Part shown: piece after piece, positions 3,917 through 61,674 of the stretch
Layout: each line of letters starts with the position of its first letter
How positions within the stretch are numbered: position 1 is the stretch's first letter
Assembly (NCBI RefSeq): GCF_016019885.1
Contig: NZ_JAEANY010000001.1
Span: 496,001 to 560,000 of the forward strand
Origin: Aurantiacibacter sediminis
Lineage (GTDB): Bacteria; Pseudomonadota; Alphaproteobacteria; Sphingomonadales; Sphingomonadaceae
Length of the DNA: 64,000 bases
Direction: 5' to 3'
Made by a program: the position numbers and the translations under genes
The notes under the pieces: model-generated
Told to the model about the DNA's origin: nothing
Seen by the model: the letters and a program-made list of their open reading frames with translations, nothing else
The model's database searches: none

Positions 3917-6780
3917 GCGCTGGCATCCATTTCGGCAACCACGCTTTCGCAGCGATTGCAAAGGTCGCCATCTTCCTCGACTTCGGGGAGGAGGCGCCAG
4001 CATCGGCCACATTTGGCATCGGGGCTATTGGTGACTGACACTTCATCTGCATCGCCGAGCGTCACCTCACCGGTGATGAACAGCGTGGCGAGATCCTCGG
4101 CGCTGAAGCCTTCAGGCACGGCGCTTGCGGGCACGGTGACTTCGGCTTCCAGGCCGGAGCGGATGGTCTTCTCGCGGCGCAGCGGCTCGATGGCTTCCAT
4201 CACCCGTTCACGAAGGTCGCGCAGCTTTTCCCAGCGGTCCGAATTGGCATCGGCTGCGGGGATCGGCTCCAGCTCCAGCATGTGCACGCTGCCGGCATCG
4301 GGGTAGCGGGTGCCCCACACTTCTTCGCTGGTGAACACCAGTACCGGCGCGGCATAGCGGATCAGCGCGTGGAACAGCGTGTCGAGCACGGTGCGGTAGG
4401 CGCGGCGCTCCACGCTGCCGGGCGCATCGCAATAGAGCCGGTCCTTGCGGATATCGAAGAAGAAGGCCGAAAGGTCCTCATTCATGAAATCGACGAGCGA
4501 GCGGGTATAGGCGTTGAAGTCGTAATCGTGAATGCACTGGCGCAGCTTCGCATCCAGCTCACCCAGCAGGCTGAGCATATACCGCTCCAGCTCGGGCATT
4601 TCGCTGACATCGACGCGTTCGTTTTCGTCGAAACCGCCGAGCGCGCCGAGCATATAGCGGAAGGTGTTGCGTAGCTTGCGATACTGGTCGGCAACGCCCT
4701 TCAGAATTTCCGGCCCGATGCGATGGTCTTCGGTGTAATCGACGCTCAGCGCCCACAGGCGGATGATGTCGGCACCGTATTCCTCCATCACCTTCAGCGG
4801 ATCGACCGTGTTGCCGAGGCTCTTTGACATCTTGCGCCCGTCCGCCGCCATGGTGAAGCCGTGGGTCAGCACGCTCTTGTAAGGCGCGTGGCCGCGCGTG
4901 GCGCAGCTTTCGAGCAGGGAGGACTGGAACCAGCCGCGGTGCTGGTCACTGCCTTCCAGGTAGAGGTCGGCAGGCGATTGCAGGTCCGGCCAATTATCGC
5001 TTTCGAGCACGAAGGCGTGCGTCGAGCCGCTATCGAACCAGACATCGAGGATGTCGCCGATCATCTCGTAGTCTTCGAGCTTGTAGCTCGCGCCGAGCAG
5101 CGCCTGCGCGTTCTCTTCGGACCACGCATCGACACCGTCCGCCATGATCGCTTCCACTATGCGCTGGTTGACCGCCGGATCGACGAGATATTCGCCGGTC
5201 TTGCGATCGACGAACAGCGTGATCGGCACGCCCCATGCGCGCTGGCGGGACAGAACCCAGTCGGGACGCCCCTCGACCATCGAGCCGATCCGGTTCTTGC
5301 CCTTCGCCGGAACGAACCGCGTTTTGTCGATTTCGGAGAGGGCCACATCCCTCAACGTCATCCCAGCGGACGCTGGGATCTCGCCGCTTTCCGCGCTGCT
5401 CTCAGAGACCCCAGCTTCCGCTGGGGTGACGGAGGGCTTGTCCATCGGCACGAACCATTGCGGGGTGCAGCGATAGATGACCTTGGCTTTGGAGCGCCAC
5501 GAATGCGGGTAGGAATGCTCGTAATCGGCGGAAGCCGAGAGCAGTGCGCCTGCCTCACGCAGGTCCGAACAAATCGGCCCGTCGGGCGCGTTGAATTTGG
5601 GGTTGATGACCGAGCCATTGCGCGCATCGGTGCGCGGCAGCCATTCCCAATCCTCGCGGTAACGCCCGTCGGCATCGACCACGAACTTCGGATTGATGCC
5701 ATGCGCCTTGCAGAGGTCGAAATCGTCCTCGCCATGGTCGGGTGCCATGTGCACGAGGCCAGTACCGCTGTCGGTGGTGACAAAGTCGCCCGCAAGCAGC
5801 GGACGCGGCTCGGCAAAGAACCCGCCGAGATGGTGCATTGGGTGGCGGCAGATTGTGCCGGCGAGGTCAGAGCCTTTGATTGAGCCAACCAAGCCACCTT
5901 CACCGGTGGTTGGCTCGTAGCCCCAACGCTTCATTGATTCTGCTTGGCAACCAAAGGCGACAAGCATGCGCTTCCCGTTCCATTCGACGACATCGTAGGA
6001 AAGGTCAGGGCCATAAGCCAATGCCTGGTTCACAGGGATCGTCCACGGCGTGGTTGTCCAGATCACCGCATGCGCGCCGACCAACTCCTCGATGGGGCTC
6101 TCGACGATCTCAAACGCCACATCGATCTGCGTCGAGGTGATGTCCTCGTATTCGACTTCGGCCTCGGCCAGCGCGGTCTTTTCAACCGGGCTCCACATCA
6201 CCGGCTTCGCGCCGCGATAGAGCTGGCCACTCTCTGCAAACTTGAGCAATTCGGCAACGATGCCCGCTTCGGCTGCGGGAGCCATCGTCAAATACGGCTT
6301 GTCCCACTCACCCGTGATGCCGAGGCGCTTGAATTGTTCGCGCTGCACGCCGACCCATTCGGCGGCATATTCGCGGCATTCCCGGCGGAATTCGCGCACC
6401 GGGACTTCATCCTTGTTGCGCTTCTTCTTCTTGTACTTTTCCTCGACCTTCCATTCGATGGGCAGGCCGTGGCAGTCCCAGCCGGGCACATAGGGCGCAT
6501 CACGCCCAAGCAGGCTCTGCGTGCGGACGACCGCATCCTTCAGCACCTTGTTCAGCGCATGGCCGATATGGATATTGCCATTGGCGTAGGGCGGGCCATC
6601 ATGCAGCACGAATTTCTCGCGCCCTGCACGCGCCTTGCGCAGCGCCTTGTAGACGCCATCGTCTTCCCAGCGCGCAAGAATGCCCGGTTCCTTCTGCGGA
6701 AGGCCGGCCTTCATGGGAAAATCGGTCTTCGGCAGAAAGACGGTGTCCCGGTAATCTCGCTTGCTAGATTCTTCGCTCAT
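3913..6780 (-). CDS. ileS: Isoleucyl-tRNA synthetase with an in-frame repeat insertion
   Basis: Class I synthetase charging tRNA-Ile, 955 residues. The HIGH motif is at 71-74 (NGNIHIGHALNK), KMSKS near 650 (GRKMSKSLGN), and a C-terminal zinc knuckle CGRC...CNRC near 923-943. An odd stretch at about residues 451-476 (starting SVTPAEAGVSESS and ending PASAGMT) falls between PQWFVPMDKP and LRDVALSEIDKTRF, which normally lie close together. It is encoded by a palindromic genomic repeat (separate entry) and keeps the frame. The gene is coupled to lspA downstream and lies 62 bases behind the phosphodiesterase gene. Confidence 0.97.
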   Translation of the reverse strand: MSEESSKRDYRDTVFLPKTDFPMKAGLPQKEPGILARWEDDGVYKALRKARAGREKFVLHDGPPYANGNIHIGHALNKVLKDAVVRTQSLLGRDAPYVPGWDCHGLPIEWKVEEKYKKKKRNKDEVPVREFRRECREYAAEWVGVQREQFKRLGITGEWDKPYLTMAPAAEAGIVAELLKFAESGQLYRGAKPVMWSPVEKTALAEAEVEYEDITSTQIDVAFEIVESPIEELVGAHAVIWTTTPWTIPVNQALAYGPDLSYDVVEWNGKRMLVAFGCQAESMKRWGYEPTTGEGGLVGSIKGSDLAGTICRHPMHHLGGFFAEPRPLLAGDFVTTDSGTGLVHMAPDHGEDDFDLCKAHGINPKFVVDADGRYREDWEWLPRTDARNGSVINPKFNAPDGPICSDLREAGALLSASADYEHSYPHSWRSKAKVIYRCTPQWFVPMDKPSVTPAEAGVSESSAESGEIPASAGMTLRDVALSEIDKTRFVPAKGKNRIGSMVEGRPDWVLSRQRAWGVPITLFVDRKTGEYLVDPAVNQRIVEAIMADGVDAWSEENAQALLGASYKLEDYEMIGDILDVWFDSGSTHAFVLESDNWPDLQSPADLYLEGSDQHRGWFQSSLLESCATRGHAPYKSVLTHGFTMAADGRKMSKSLGNTVDPLKVMEEYGADIIRLWALSVDYTEDHRIGPEILKGVADQYRKLRNTFRYMLGALGGFDENERVDVSEMPELERYMLSLLGELDAKLRQCIHDYDFNAYTRSLVDFMNEDLSAFFFDIRKDRLYCDAPGSVERRAYRTVLDTLFHALIRYAAPVLVFTSEEVWGTRYPDAGSVHMLELEPIPAADANSDRWEKLRDLRERVMEAIEPLRREKTIRSGLEAEVTVPASAVPEGFSAEDLATLFITGEVTLGDADEVSVTNSPDAKCGRCWRLLPEVEEDGDLCNRCESVVAEMDASA
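5357..5430. repeat. Palindromic repeat inserted inside ileS
   Basis: A 74-bp element made of two inverted 25-bp arms (5357-5381 and 5406-5430) that differ at three positions. Each arm is itself a hairpin, for example CCCAGCGGACGCTGGG and CCCCAGCTTCCGCTGGGG. It encodes about 25 extra in-frame residues of IleRS. The same element occurs between genes at 57920-57979. Functionally it resembles in-gene palindromic elements known from Rickettsia, but the sequence is different. Confidence 0.88.
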
Positions 6781-12880: not shown

Positions 12881-13021
12881 TTAGCCTTCGTCATCTGTCT
12901 TGGGAAGAGCTTCGTCGGCCTTTTGCCGGTCTGCCATTTCGCGCGCCTGCGTCTTGCGCCGACGCAGGTTCTCGCGCAACTTGGCGGCCAGGCGCTCTTC
13001 GCGGGTCATGTCCTTGCACAT
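12881..13021 (-). CDS. Small basic/acidic helical protein, 46 residues
   Basis: A short reading frame starting MCKDMTREERLAAKLRENLR and ending in an acidic tail (PKTDDEG). It is very rich in Arg, Lys, Glu and Ala and should be one long helix. AGAGG stands six bases before ATG 13021, a good ribosome site; the internal ATG at 13009 is less well placed. Short proteins with this TREERLAAKLRENLRRRK pattern are, as I recall, common hypothetical proteins in sphingomonads. No function is known to me. It precedes gpmA on the same strand by 43 bases. Confidence 0.65.
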   Translation of the reverse strand: MCKDMTREERLAAKLRENLRRRKTQAREMADRQKADEALPKTDDEG

Positions 13022-13157: not shown

Positions 13158-13232
13158 GCCGCGGTAGCTCAGTGGTAGAGCGCACCCTTGGTAAGGGTGA
13201 GGCCGAGAGTTCAATTCTCTCTCGTGGCACCA
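13158..13232 (+). tRNA. tRNA-Thr (anticodon GGT)
   Basis: 75 bases that fold as a full cloverleaf: acceptor GCCGCGG with TCGTGGC (G-T wobbles), D arm GCTC/GAGC, anticodon stem CACCC/GGGTG with loop TTGGTAA giving anticodon GGT, five-base variable loop, T arm GAGAG/CTCTC with TTCAATT loop, discriminator A and an encoded CCA. It decodes ACC and ACU. The encoded CCA end runs straight into the upstream arm of the trailer hairpin. Confidence 0.96.
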
Positions 13233-13263
13233 TTTTTCTGAAGGAAAAATGATTGTTTGTTCT
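13231..13263 (+). terminator. Trailer hairpin of tRNA-Thr, likely intrinsic terminator
   Basis: An 8-bp perfect stem CATTTTTC (13231-13238) with GAAAAATG (13244-13251) and loop TGAAG, followed by the T-rich tract ATTGTTTGTTCT. The first two bases of the stem are the last two of the tRNA CCA end, so the unprocessed transcript would pair its CCA terminus with the trailer. tRNA-Gly at 29247 has the same arrangement. Confidence 0.65.
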
Positions 13264-13265
13264 CC

Positions 13266-13293
13266 GCCCGCCCATCCGGGCGTGCGTCCTCGG
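13266..13293 (+). repeat. CATCCG hairpin unit, copy A1
   Basis: 28-bp unit: stem GCCCGCC, loop CATCCG, stem GGCGTGC (6 of 7 pairs), tail GTCCTCGG. The tail overlaps the first bases of the 245-bp repeat. Three other units with the same loop and tail but different stems lie at 13551-13578 (opposite strand), 29354-29381 and 29398-29425. Confidence 0.8.
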
Positions 13294-13528
13294 TGCTGTT
13301 CGCTTCGCGGGGACTTCGTTCCCGCTGCGCGGCACCTGCGGGCTTCGCGGTTGCTCGCTGTCGCTGAGCTGCGCTCAGCGATTCTCGCGCTTCAGCCGGG
13401 AAGTGTCGCGGAGCACGGGCCATCGGCCCGCAAGCGCGAATGCGCGCCCGGAGCCGCCCCGCAGCGGAGCGGAGGGATTCAGGCGAGGATAGCCTAAGGG
13501 AGCGGATGCGACCGCCGGCGCCTGAGGC
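13284..13528 (+). repeat. 245-bp repeat behind tRNA-Thr, copy A
   Basis: Direct copy of 29416-29660, identical in length with no gaps and seven base differences by my count (about 97 percent identity). It begins 51 bases after the tRNA. Inside are strong hairpins: GCGGGGA with TTCCCGC around CTTCG, a perfect nine-pair stem TCGCTGAGC/GCTCAGCGA with a three-base loop, and CGGGCC/GGCCCG. Open frames exist on both strands but show no start signals or protein-like conservation. I interpret it as a non-coding structured or mobile element of unknown function. Confidence 0.88.
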
Positions 13529-13550
13529 CAAACAAATTAGATTGCGTCTA

Positions 13551-13578
13551 GCGAGGACGAACCTGCGGATGCAGGTTC
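13551..13578 (-). repeat. CATCCG hairpin unit, copy A2 (inverted)
   Basis: Read on the minus strand: stem GAACCTG, loop CATCCG, stem CAGGTTC (7 of 7 pairs), tail GTCCTCGC. It lies 22 bases beyond the 245-bp repeat and is inverted relative to unit A1, so the repeat is bracketed by inverted hairpin units at this locus. The remaining bases up to the gene at 13657 are A-rich with no feature I can name. Confidence 0.78.
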
Positions 13579-13656
13579 AAGAAGAAAACAAAACGAAACG
13601 CCCGCGGAAGAACAACCCTCTTCCCCTCTCCGTGTGTCACTTATAGATATCACCCG

Positions 13657-29246: not shown

Positions 29247-29320
29247 GCGGGTATAGCATAGTGGTAATGCTCCAGCCTTCCAAGCTGGCTAGAGGGGTTC
29301 GATTCCCCTTACCCGCTCCA
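29247..29320 (+). tRNA. tRNA-Gly (anticodon TCC)
   Basis: 74-base cloverleaf: acceptor GCGGGTA/TACCCGC, D arm around AGTGGTAA, anticodon stem CCAGC/GCTGG with loop CTTCCAA giving TCC, T arm AGGGG/CCCCT with GGTTCGATT type loop, discriminator T and encoded CCA. Reads GGA and GGG. A TTGACG -35-like hexamer lies at 29188, but no good -10 follows. The CCA end is the first part of the trailer hairpin. Confidence 0.96.
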
Positions 29321-29353: not shown

Positions 29354-29381
29354 GCACCGACATCCGTCGGCGCGTCCTCGG
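29354..29381 (+). repeat. CATCCG hairpin unit, copy B1
   Basis: Stem GCACCGA, loop CATCCG, stem TCGGCGC (6 of 7 pairs), tail GTCCTCGG. It lies 33 bases after tRNA-Gly and is followed after 16 bases by unit B2 in the same direction. Confidence 0.8.
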
Positions 29382-29397: not shown

Positions 29398-29425
29398 GCG
29401 GCCACATCCGTGGCCGCGTCCTCGG
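29398..29425 (+). repeat. CATCCG hairpin unit, copy B2
   Basis: Stem GCGGCCA, loop CATCCG, stem TGGCCGC (7 of 7 pairs), tail GTCCTCGG. As with unit A1, the tail overlaps the first bases of the neighbouring 245-bp repeat, fixing the unit as the left border of the repeat at both loci. Confidence 0.8.
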
Positions 29426-29660
29426 CGCTGTTCGCTTCGCGGGGACTTCGTTCCCGCTGCGCGGCACCTGCGGGCTTCGCGGTTGCTCGCTGTCGCTGAG
29501 CTGCGCTCAGCGATTCTCGCGCTTCAGCCGGGAAGTGTCGCGGAGCACGGGCCATCGGCCCGCAAGCGCGAACGCGCGTCCGCAGCCGCCCCGCAGCGGA
29601 GCGGAGGGATTTAGGCGAGGATAGCCTGAGGGAGCGGATGCGACCGCCGGCGCATGAGGC
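29416..29660 (+). repeat. 245-bp repeat behind tRNA-Gly, copy B
   Basis: Second copy of the element at 13284-13528, same orientation relative to its tRNA, same length, seven substitutions. It begins 95 bases after the tRNA, the extra distance being filled by unit B1. No inverted unit follows on its right side here, unlike copy A. No convincing gene lies inside. Confidence 0.88.
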
Positions 29661-56366: not shown

Positions 56367-57908
56367 ATGACCTCAAATCGCCGTACTTTTGCGATCATCT
56401 CGCACCCTGACGCCGGTAAGACCACGCTTACGGAAAAGCTGCTGCTGCAAGGCGGCGCTATTCATCAGGCGGGCGCTGTGAAGGCGCGCGGGGAAGCGCG
56501 GCGGGCGCGGTCTGACTGGATGAAGATCGAGCAGCAGCGCGGTATCTCGGTCACCTCCAGCGTGATGACGTTCGAAAAGCAGTACGATGGCGAGACCATC
56601 ACTTTCAACCTCCTCGATACGCCGGGTCACGAAGATTTCTCCGAAGACACTTATCGCACCCTGACGGCGGTCGACAGCGCGATTATGGTGATCGATGCGG
56701 CCAAAGGTATTGAGCCGCAGACGCGCAAGCTGTTCGAGGTCTGCCGCCTGCGCAATGTGCCGATCATCACTTTCGTCAACAAGGTGGACCGCGAAGGCCG
56801 CGACCCGTTCGAGACGCTGGACGAAGTGGCGGATATGCTCGCGCTCGATGTCAGTCCGCAAATGTGGCCGATCGGCATGGGCGGCCTGTTCGAGGGCCTG
56901 CTCGATTTTCGTACCGAGGAAGTGGCGCGGGTCGAAGGCGGTTCGAAAGATTACCTCGGCAAGCGCGATGCGCTCGCAGATTCCAGTATCCCGGAGAATT
57001 ACGAGGAAGAATACCAGCTGGCCCAAGCCGGCTATCCCGAATTCGACCTCGAAGCCTATCGCAATGGTGACCTGACTCCGGTATATTTCGGTTCCGCGCT
57101 CAAGAACCTCGGTGTCGAGGAGCTGATCGACGCGATTGCCCGTTACGCACCGCCGCCGCGTCCGCAGCCTGCGGGTGAGGAGAAGATCGGACCGGAGTAC
57201 GGCGAAGTCACCGGGTTCATCTTCAAAGTGCAGGCGAATATGGACCCGAACCACCGGGACCGGATCGCCTTTATGCGGCAGGTGTCGGGCACGTTCAAAC
57301 GCGGCATGAAACTGACCCCGTCCGGCCTTGGCAAGCCCATTGCCGTCCATTCCCCGATCCTGTTCTTCGCGCAGGATCGCGAGATTGCCGATACGGCAGA
57401 GCCAGGCGATATCATCGGCATTCCGAACCACGGCACGCTGCGCGTGGGCGATACGCTGAGTGAGAAGGACACTGTTCGCTTTACCGGACTGCCCAACTTT
57501 GCGCCGGAGATCCTGCGCCGTATCCAGTTGAAGGATCCGACCAAGACCAAGCAGCTGAGGAAAGCGCTCGATGACCTTTCGGAAGAGGGCGTTATCCAGG
57601 TTTTCTATCCGGAGATCGGCGGCAGCAGCATTGTCGGCGTGGTCGGTCAACTTCAGCTCGACGTGCTGATTTCGCGCCTGGGTGCGGAGTACAAGGTCGA
57701 TGCTGCGCTCGAAGCGTCTCCCTTCGCCACGGCGCGCTGGCTGAAGGGCAGCGACAAAGCTCTGCGCGATTTCGAGCGGTTCAATCAGGGCAATCTCGCC
57801 AAGGACCGTGACGGCGACCTTGTATTCATGGCGAAAAGCCCATGGGATGTCGGCTATCAGGAAGAGAAGAACCCTGAGCTCACTTTCTCAGCAACGAAAG
57901 AACGATAG
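56367..57908 (+). CDS. prfC: Peptide chain release factor 3
   Basis: GTPase recycling RF1/RF2 after termination. 513 residues. G motifs: ISHPDAGKTTLTEKLL (G1), DTPGHEDFSEDTYRTL (G3), NKVDREGRDP (G4). The RF3-specific R-G-I-S-V-T-S block (QQRGISVTSSVMTF) is present. It starts three bases after the pheT stop, giving a pheS-pheT-prfC translation cluster, and is followed by the palindromic repeat at 57920. Confidence 0.96.
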   Translation: MTSNRRTFAIISHPDAGKTTLTEKLLLQGGAIHQAGAVKARGEARRARSDWMKIEQQRGISVTSSVMTFEKQYDGETITFNLLDTPGHEDFSEDTYRTLTAVDSAIMVIDAAKGIEPQTRKLFEVCRLRNVPIITFVNKVDREGRDPFETLDEVADMLALDVSPQMWPIGMGGLFEGLLDFRTEEVARVEGGSKDYLGKRDALADSSIPENYEEEYQLAQAGYPEFDLEAYRNGDLTPVYFGSALKNLGVEELIDAIARYAPPPRPQPAGEEKIGPEYGEVTGFIFKVQANMDPNHRDRIAFMRQVSGTFKRGMKLTPSGLGKPIAVHSPILFFAQDREIADTAEPGDIIGIPNHGTLRVGDTLSEKDTVRFTGLPNFAPEILRRIQLKDPTKTKQLRKALDDLSEEGVIQVFYPEIGGSSIVGVVGQLQLDVLISRLGAEYKVDAALEASPFATARWLKGSDKALRDFERFNQGNLAKDRDGDLVFMAKSPWDVGYQEEKNPELTFSATKER

Positions 57909-57919
57909 ACCATAACTCC

Positions 57920-57979
57920 GTCACCCCAGCGAAAGCCGGGGTCTCCCCGCCTTCCGATCCCAGCTTTCGCTGGGATGAC
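57920..57979. repeat. Palindromic repeat, intergenic copy (ileS family)
   Basis: Left arm at 57920-57944 opens GTCACCCCAGCGAAAGCC and right arm at about 57956-57979 closes GCTTTCGCTGGGATGAC. The arms are inverted relatives of each other and of the element in ileS. The inner spacer is shorter than in ileS (60 against 74 bp in total). It lies between prfC and the PPOX gene without disturbing either. Confidence 0.87.
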
Positions 57980-59384: not shown

Positions 59385-59433
59385 GATTGATCCTGTGGCC
59401 GGGATGATCGCCGGCGCAGGACAGGGGTCAGTG

Positions 59434-59772
59434 ATGAAGTTCGTCATCGCCATAATCAAACCATTCAAACTCGATGAGGTGCGCGAAGCGCTTGCCGATG
59501 TCGGTGTCGCCGGGATGACAGTCTCGGAAGTGAAAGGATTCGGCCGCCAGAAGGGCCAGACCGAAATCTATCGCGGGGCCGAATACTCGGTGAACATGTT
59601 GCCGAAGGTGAAACTCGAAATTGCGGTCAGCGACGCAATGATGCCCAAAGTGGTTGAGGCCATTCAGCAGACCGCCAGCACACAAGCCATCGGCGACGGC
59701 AAGATTTTCGTGCTCGATCTCGCATCGACCACGCGCATCCGAACCGGCGAAACCGACGAAACCGCGCTGTGA
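59434..59772 (+). CDS. glnK: PII nitrogen regulatory protein (first copy)
   Basis: 112 residues, the PII length. The T-loop GRQKGQTEIYRGAEYSVNML carries the uridylylation site Tyr51. The C-terminal DGKIFVLDLASTTRIRTGE completes the ATP/2-oxoglutarate site. It senses 2-oxoglutarate and ATP/ADP and plugs AmtB when nitrogen is plentiful. Driven by the sigma-54 promoter and 14 bases ahead of amtB, so GlnK is the better name than GlnB. Confidence 0.93.
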   Translation: MKFVIAIIKPFKLDEVREALADVGVAGMTVSEVKGFGRQKGQTEIYRGAEYSVNMLPKVKLEIAVSDAMMPKVVEAIQQTASTQAIGDGKIFVLDLASTTRIRTGETDETAL

Positions 59773-61262: not shown

Positions 61263-61335
61263 GGTTGCATGGGAGGGTGCGCGCATCGCACACTGGGCGG
61301 GTCGCCATGCCCGTCATGCGCACAGGGGAGAGCCG

Positions 61336-61674
61336 ATGAAGATCGTAATAGCCGTCATCAAACCGTTCAAACTGGAAGAGGTACGCGAGGCTTTGGCCGC
61401 AATTGGCGTTGCTGGAATGACCGTGTGCGAGGCCAAGGGATTCGGTCGGCAAAAAGGGCAGACCGAAATCTATCGCGGCGCCGAATATGCGGTGAATATG
61501 CTTCCCAAGGTGCGGCTGGAAATTGCCGTCGACGACGAAATGGCTCCGCAAGTGGTCGAGACGATCCGCAATGCCGCAAACACCGGACAAATTGGCGATG
61601 GGAAAATTTTCGTCCTGCCGCTTGAAGGCGCGACGCGTATCAGGACGGGCGAAGTCGACGAAAATGCGCTATAA
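61336..61674 (+). CDS. glnK: PII nitrogen regulatory protein (second copy)
   Basis: 112 residues, most residues shared with the first copy; the T-loop and its Tyr51 (GRQKGQTEIYRGAEYAVNML) are intact. Differences cluster in the middle (VDDEMAPQVVETIRNAANTG) and start (CEAKGFG). Behind a terminator and a separate GTGCG-N5-CGCAC palindrome at 61277-61291, so it is probably controlled apart from amtB. GlnB-type function is possible, with a PII on each side of amtB. Confidence 0.92.
   Translation: MKIVIAVIKPFKLEEVREALAAIGVAGMTVCEAKGFGRQKGQTEIYRGAEYAVNMLPKVRLEIAVDDEMAPQVVETIRNAANTGQIGDGKIFVLPLEGATRIRTGEVDENAL

Follow-up and report, generated by a model that had tools for sequence, protein, structure and literature searches.

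The stretch analysed here, called the window, comprises 64,000 nt of the Aurantiacibacter sediminis genome (contig NZ_JAEANY010000001.1, positions 496,001 to 560,000). The only tRNA genes detected in it by ARAGORN and Rfam are those for tRNA-Thr (GGT) and tRNA-Gly (TCC), and each of them is followed, on the same strand, by a copy of one and the same 245-bp sequence bordered by hairpins. The features of both sites are given below in window coordinates.

13158..13232, + strand: tRNA-Thr (GGT), found by ARAGORN and Rfam; precedes the first copy.
13266..13285, + strand: left terminal hairpin of the Thr site, with an 8-bp stem containing one mismatch (hairpin recognition picked up its inner 5 bp) and the loop ATCC, which is GGAT on the opposite strand.
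13284..13528, + strand: first copy, 245 bp, 97% against the Gly copy and 88% against the Trp copy outside the window (BLAST/alignment).
13485..13528, + strand: type B right end of the Thr site, read by eye as GAGGATAGCC.., GGAT, ..GCCGGCGCCTGAGGC; its stem is imperfect and was missed by the hairpin finder.
13551..13578, + strand: second right end of the Thr site, type A, consisting of GAGGAC, stem GAACCTGC, loop GGAT and stem GCAGGTTC.
29247..29320, + strand: tRNA-Gly (TCC), found by ARAGORN and Rfam; precedes the second copy.
29354..29381, + strand: outer left hairpin of the Gly site, GCACCGAC/GTCGGCGC with loop ATCC, then GTCCTCGG.
29398..29425, + strand: inner left hairpin of the Gly site, GCGGCCAC/GTGGCCGC with loop ATCC, then GTCCTCGG; 44 nt from the outer one.
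29416..29660, + strand: second copy, 245 bp, ending in a type B right end at 29617-29660.

Alignment of the two copies bore out what had been read by eye in an earlier note on this DNA, namely that they are of equal length, free of gaps and distinguished by seven differences (7 mismatches over 245 nt, 97%), and that they begin 51 nt (Thr) and 95 nt (Gly) behind the CCA ends of the tRNA genes. Taken as a direct repeat the pair extends over 267 nt at 94%, being one of two direct-repeat families of at least 40 nt in the window. Both limits of the match are sharp: on the left it ends at the 3' arm of a hairpin, the stems of which differ between the sites (GCCCGCCC at Thr, GCGGCCAC at Gly), and on the right it ends after GAGGC, at 13528 and 29660. 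The 245 bp are the common interior of a longer element, spanning 13266 to 13578 at the Thr site, where a further hairpin end follows the shared stretch on the right. Elsewhere in the window, a direct repeat of 300 nt (71%) at 59433-59732 and 61335-61634 flanks, by eye, an ammonium-transporter-like ORF and may be a duplicated small gene.

The earlier proposal of a non-coding, structured and repeated element containing no credible gene was upheld. None of the three ORFs tested over the element has a Pfam match, and a protein-coding origin was rejected on this basis. Rfam returned nothing at the Thr copy up to E 1, and at the gathering score it recognised in the window only the two tRNAs, so a known RNA family was rejected as the identity of the element. 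The 331 nt of the Thr site fold better than all 100 shuffled sequences on both strands (z -2.92 and -2.39), the scores being modest and alike on the two strands. The region 13260-13590 had no blastn match in the plasmid collection or in the phage collection, and an origin from either was rejected.

A BLAST search of the A. sediminis genome (G000, 2.67 Mb, 41 tRNA genes) with the 245 nt gave 18 matches. The top three are each located 3' of a tRNA gene (Thr, Gly and Trp), a further short one consists of the right end alone between 5S rRNA and tRNA-fMet, and 14 have no tRNA inside their 3-kb locus, most of these standing a few bases behind protein genes; three further single-end places were found by pattern. 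The description of the element as tRNA-linked can be kept in part: copies are over-represented 3' of tRNA genes, both in A. sediminis (3/18 matches, P ~0.003 with rough gene numbers) and in nine relatives (9 of 139 pattern-fetched sites within 60 nt, P ~0.0003 with rough gene counts), but most copies lie away from tRNA genes, an outcome which the earlier note itself had set against its proposal. By this distribution tRNA-guided insertion was rejected as a rule, and the element differs in the same respect from tRNA-targeted integrative elements, whose copies are located at tRNA genes.

A mobile element steered towards the 3' flanks of tRNA genes would account for this enrichment, for the fact that the three tRNA-associated copies of A. 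sediminis are its three best matches, and for the state of the tRNA-Thr site, which carries the element or what is left of it in 18 of 20 relatives (the hairpin finder detected 12, and six were recognised by eye, L100 being a weak remnant; two sites are empty). The 14 tRNA-free matches speak against it, no repeat derived from a tRNA gene was noticed by eye, and a further point against it is the tRNA-Gly site, where the element is present in the relative G003 and partial in G001, while the 420 nt behind the tRNA look blank by eye in 8 of 10 relatives, and such guidance is considered very improbable. At tRNA-Trp the element is also found in G003, G009 and G010. The Thr, Gly (97%) and Trp (88%) copies are best seen as the recent spread of one variant; the Gly site of G003 carries a different mosaic.

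The type B right end (GCGAGGATAGCC..GCCGGCGCCTGAGGC) occurs in A. sediminis at four loci, all of them at stable-RNA genes, that is behind tRNA-Thr, tRNA-Gly and tRNA-Trp and between 5S rRNA and tRNA-fMet. This restriction may be an accident of descent, because 17 of 19 type B tails in the relatives have no tRNA within 200 nt. The end between 5S rRNA and tRNA-fMet stands alone (L018:1503-1545, genome position C6:865314-865358), and A. aquimixticola has a similar end (L233) 26 nt ahead of a tRNA-Met. A different purine-rich motif (GAGCGAAGCGGAGACG-like, then ACAATCC or CCAATCC) was noticed by eye behind three tRNA-Arg/tRNA-Tyr genes of A. sediminis (L020, L035, L041).

Full elements are composed of a GC-rich hairpin core of roughly 150-250 nt between two inverted terminal modules, and each module comprises CGAGGAY, an 8-bp stem of almost free sequence, a GGAN loop and an ACAAAC-like tail. 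Read outward, type A modules have CGAGGA(C/T), and an 8-bp stem mostly starting with G and closing with C; their loop is either GGAT or GGAG, and examples of their tails are CATGAGACAAAC and CAAAACAAA. Type B modules have GAGGAWAGCC.., a stem of 6-7 bp, GGAT or GGAC, and then GCCGGCGCTTGAGGC or similar. The pattern CATCCGN{2,12}CGTCCTCG had 26 matches in A. sediminis and one in the reversed control. Base pairing was assessed in 204 modules from the fetched loci of ten genomes, the pattern having fixed one arm and the loop only. All eight stem positions pair in 180 of them and at least seven in 201. At the six free positions 97.7% of bases are paired versus 54.0% with reshuffled arms (sd 1.5; maximum of 1000 shuffles 59.1%), a control that overstates the independence of the pairing changes because the copies are related. 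The modules contain 67 different arms, with at least three Watson-Crick pair types at each free position.

Placement and conservation were studied in a set of 163 sites. Seven fetched loci with no recognisable end were excluded; G007 stands outside this analysis, as do two single-end places of A. sediminis (C7:594622 and C8:153069), which are not among its 19 sites. For G009, G001 and G002 the fetch coordinates were picked by eye from spacing and head; 4 of the 23 loci entered for G002 were dropped, and other chance matches of the loose pattern were left out. Ends in both orientations were recognised at 58 sites, one end at 101 and none at 2, a split which is affected by the hairpin finder missing decayed ends.

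The sites are found mostly at the 3' ends of genes. Counted from recognised hairpins, and with genes called by a simple ORF script that makes some wrong calls, 78 of the 163 sites have the nearest preceding 3' end of a gene or tRNA no more than 15 nt away, and 38 have it at 16-60 nt; at 11 sites it lies only beyond 60 nt, and 36 have no 3' end in front of the recognised hairpin. By the orientation of their neighbouring genes, 60 sites are convergent, 56 co-directional and 20 divergent, the remaining 27 being unclassed. A stop codon stands between -5 and 60 nt before the stem in 125 of 224 hairpins, exactly 10 nt before it in 34 of these 125 and 10 nt or fewer in 70. At the 10-nt position TGA (16), TAG (12) and TAA (6) all occur, therefore no single fixed stop codon is supplied by the element. 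Liang and colleagues reportedly found in 2015 that E. coli ribosomes can stall at REPs which closely follow a stop codon. Proximity to 3' ends, under 20 bp, is a habit of REPs described in PMC3733652.

The best relatives of a neighbouring protein are from Aurantiacibacter sp. D1-12 and A. marinus, and the family as a whole is probably centred on this genus. The GGAT-type pattern was present in 33 of 118 genomes of the order, and more than four matches were reached in only three of them, all of the same genus (26, 26 and 11, compared with 0 in its fourth genome), in a scan that misses GGAG types. The second genome with 26 matches is G009, as identified by the same coordinates.

Sites were matched between species by reciprocal best neighbour genes, and 119 of the 163 belong to groups common to at least two species. 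Sixteen of the 19 A. sediminis sites are shared with other species, or 15 of 19 when partners fetched by a tRNA or protein query are set aside (L089, L092, L093, L098 and L114 were fetched through the tRNA-Thr or tRNA-Gly site). Summed over genome pairs, 189 sharings were counted versus about 13 expected under the assumption of 2,800 genes and 80% orthologues. Positions are kept, and the sequences at them tend to follow the genome in which they reside. In the 40 nt beside the hairpin, alpha ends agree at 65.0% within a genome, 58.2% with the same site elsewhere and 57.1% with other sites, and the corresponding values for beta ends are 63.1%, 61.2% and 57.8%. When the comparison was made end by end, genome-mates were a closer match than same-site partners for 34 of 52 alpha ends (Wilcoxon P 0.005) and for 43 of 62 beta ends (P 0.04), in tests which treat ends as independent though the copies are kin. 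The sequence therefore seems to be homogenised inside each genome; this is clearer at alpha ends than at beta ends, where the effect is small.

Evidence of movement comes from a small gene in front of the Thr site, present in the window and in relatives as follows.

12881..13021, - strand: small conserved ORF of 46 aa, carrying no insert, between gpmA and tRNA-Thr.
L089:2329-2568 and L098:2382-2645, - strand: in-frame half-elements in the C-terminal tail of the orthologues of Aurantiacibacter sp. D1-12 and A. luteus, a different half in each.

Thirteen orthologues of this ORF were found, 11 of them uninterrupted (that of A. sediminis included) and two with the in-frame half-elements; in 10 further loci the orthologue was not found. 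As these sequences indicate, elements can enter new places. Ends stacked with a 44-nt period occur at the Gly site (L002), at L012 of the same genome and at L245 of G002, as if one element had entered the end of another. Such observations, together with the inverted ends and the variation of the interior, would suit a MITE, a non-autonomous transposon mobilised by a transposase, of the DDE type or another, which recognises the hairpin ends. This explanation is nevertheless judged unlikely: no target-site duplication was seen by eye, the empty sites at hand all being divergent, positions are kept across the genus, and no transposase gene was noticed between paired ends. Outward-facing ends 1.9 kb apart occur in one IMG/VR contig, L397, and belong by eye to two separate elements.

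Candidate movers were sought both in the bacterial genomes and in viral contigs. The Y1_Tnp domain of RAYT transposases was not found in A. sediminis at E 0.1, and at E 0.01 it was not found in 9 of 10 relatives; the single hit, in G005, lies in a locus with no GAGGAYG motif. RAYT/IS200 was consequently rejected as the mover. A pattern scan of IMG/VR gave 34 matches, of which 9 have at least 7 of 8 stem pairs (some being the same sequence in two contigs) and the others are partly chance. Among the contigs, L383, L397 and L401 appear by eye to be phage- or gene-transfer-agent-like structural clusters which carry ordinary copies of the element, and no transposase was recognised by eye in the ORFs of these three. 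This one scan of viral contigs brought no autonomous partner to light.

The loop of the module distinguishes genomes from each other. In a tree built from three joined proteins A. sediminis and G003 come out as sister species (split support 99); they have 10-11 sites in common, and the loop is mostly GGAT in the former and GGAG in the latter. Genome-wide, A. sediminis has 26 GGAT modules by pattern versus 2 GGAG modules, both of the latter at sites common to G003, and G003 has 30 GGAG modules; for GGAT in G003 a looser pattern, chance matches included, sets an upper limit of 14. Among the other relatives GGAG modules number 19 in G004, 9 in G005, 12 in G006, 19 in G008 and 15 in G010, and they number 0 in G001, 1 in G002, 0 in G007 and 2 in G009, with 0-2 in reversed controls. 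Because patterns specific for the loop were used to fetch the loci of the nine relatives, tallies of loops read from these loci are biased, such as the 30 GGAG and 1 GGAT in the G003 loci, mostly fetched by the GGAG pattern; genome-wide GGAG counts and the second ends of elements, which were not selected, are less affected. Such unselected second ends carry only GGAT in G001 (5), G002 (5) and G009 (9). In G003 they comprise GGAG 6, GGAC 2 and GGAT 1, in G008 GGAG 4, in G010 GGAG 3 and GGAC 1, in G004 GGAG 2 and GGAC 4, in G005 GGAC 2, and in G006 GGAG 2 and GGAC 4. Both loops occur among the type A modules in the loci of G005, where 7 have GGAG and 2 have GGAT.

Two further readings concern the loop. 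According to the broader one, which is rather unlikely, these elements would be a genome-wide 3'-end system that is read by structure: dozens of resident hairpin modules at fixed gene ends, with near-perfect palindromic stems drifting freely and one loop base nearly uniform in each genome, would be switched as a set between sister species, from GGAT to GGAG or the reverse, and the driving force would be either a loop-reading protein that coevolves with them or in-place rewriting with no transposase. According to the narrower one, the GGAN loop and the GAGGA head are recognised by a factor which binds RNA or DNA and coevolves with the loop, and copies are kept for regulation, not by selfish spread. 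It would fit a fixed loop and head beside a nearly free stem sequence, a loop base differing genome-wide between sister species, and positions common to several species; copying alone also predicts concerted change, and a factor-binding site of this kind is regarded as quite unlikely.

The reading preferred here, and held to be probable, is that of a REP/BIME-like family with its centre in Aurantiacibacter. Its members would be non-coding DNA elements dispersed in the genome, hairpin-ended and located mostly behind stop codons and sometimes behind tRNAs, in a family which keeps its positions between species, evolves in concert with no RAYT transposase and is placed to act as mRNA or tRNA 3'-end structure. 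Any role in RNA is what we infer, and it can be pictured as follows. Transcripts of the gene or tRNA in front would run into the element, the hairpins of which may then shape the RNA 3' end by termination, by protection against 3' exonucleases or by an effect on the terminating ribosome. New sequence would spread among resident copies by copying, either as gene conversion or as hairpin-dependent copy-in, presumably with an enzyme other than a Y1/RAYT transposase, and occasional new insertions may take place alongside. The Thr and Gly copies could have arisen recently, when one copy overwrote another site or inserted there.

CGTC-tagged REPs predominate in Alphaproteobacteria and apparently have no dedicated transposase, as described by Di Nocera et al. 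(2013, PMC3733652), so the way in which such repeats spread and remain alike is at issue. The present family is useful in this respect: its positions can be matched across species, it has a loop marker that differs between sister genomes, and about 20 copies in A. sediminis are few enough to be deleted or swapped singly, which makes the questions of spread and of 3'-end function testable.

The remark of the earlier note that the element belongs to no described family holds for Rfam, where nothing matches, but a described kind of repeat, the REP/BIME palindromes, fits it closely. No account of these elements was found among the matches listed for palindromic repeats of Sphingomonadales, Erythrobacter or Aurantiacibacter, a literature sample in which subscription journals are mostly uncovered. 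In REPINs and GTAG REPs, which go with RAYT transposases, an inverted pair of palindromes forms one unit, and a population of such sequences persists within genomes. Both features are shared by the Aurantiacibacter element; unlike REPINs and GTAG REPs, it has no GTAG-type tag (heads by eye), its stem sequences are not conserved, and Y1_Tnp occurs in 0 of 1 own genome and in 1 of 10 relatives. Enterobacterial BIMEs and the RIME and ABC mosaic elements of Rhizobiales are mosaic, intergenic, structured and located 3' of genes, and in all these properties, compared by description only, the Aurantiacibacter element resembles them. The Rickettsia palindromic elements, named in PMC3733652, are similar in their in-frame insertion into genes, here in 2 of 13 orthologues, and by description differ from the present elements, which are mainly extragenic.

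As given in PMC3733652, CGTC REPs are small hairpins with 8-9 bp stems and 4-5 nt loops, form dimers in opposite orientation and lie mainly between convergent or co-directional genes, often less than 20 bp from a 3' end. By the same source they are defined by an unpaired terminal CGTC tag (or TGTC or CCTC), placed 5' by our reading of the text, by complementary A and T at stem positions one and two, and by a tail fitting CCA. The Aurantiacibacter element resembles this description in its small hairpins, inverted dimers, nearness to 3' ends and absence of a dedicated transposase. In contrast to it, the tag before the stem is CGAGGAY, and CGTCCTCG follows the stem on the opposite strand only; no AT start is seen in the stem, since it starts with G, closes with C and varies at the next positions (G/C stem ends were part of the search pattern, and a pattern-free listing agrees for most modules). 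Its tails are ACAAAC-like, (ATG)AAACAAAC-like or GCCGGCGCTTGAGGC instead of CCA, its stem is almost unconstrained in sequence, and in full elements a core of roughly 150-250 nt is enclosed by two modules. A separate inverted pair of 43-nt hairpins in the window (5405-5447 and 57903-57945; CGTCACCCCAGC..GCTGGGGTCTC-like, 84% mutual complementarity) looks like CGTC-tagged REPs. As tested, the Aurantiacibacter element is not a member of either described tagged class, because its tag, stem start and tail differ from those of CGTC REPs so far as the source text defines them, and because GTAG and RAYT are missing. In the broad sense of REP/BIME it belongs to the kind, being made of small repeated palindromic units that lie mainly outside genes and close to their 3' ends (within 60 nt at 116 of 163 sites) and that occur as dimers in opposite orientation at 58 of 163 sites, with 101 one-ended.
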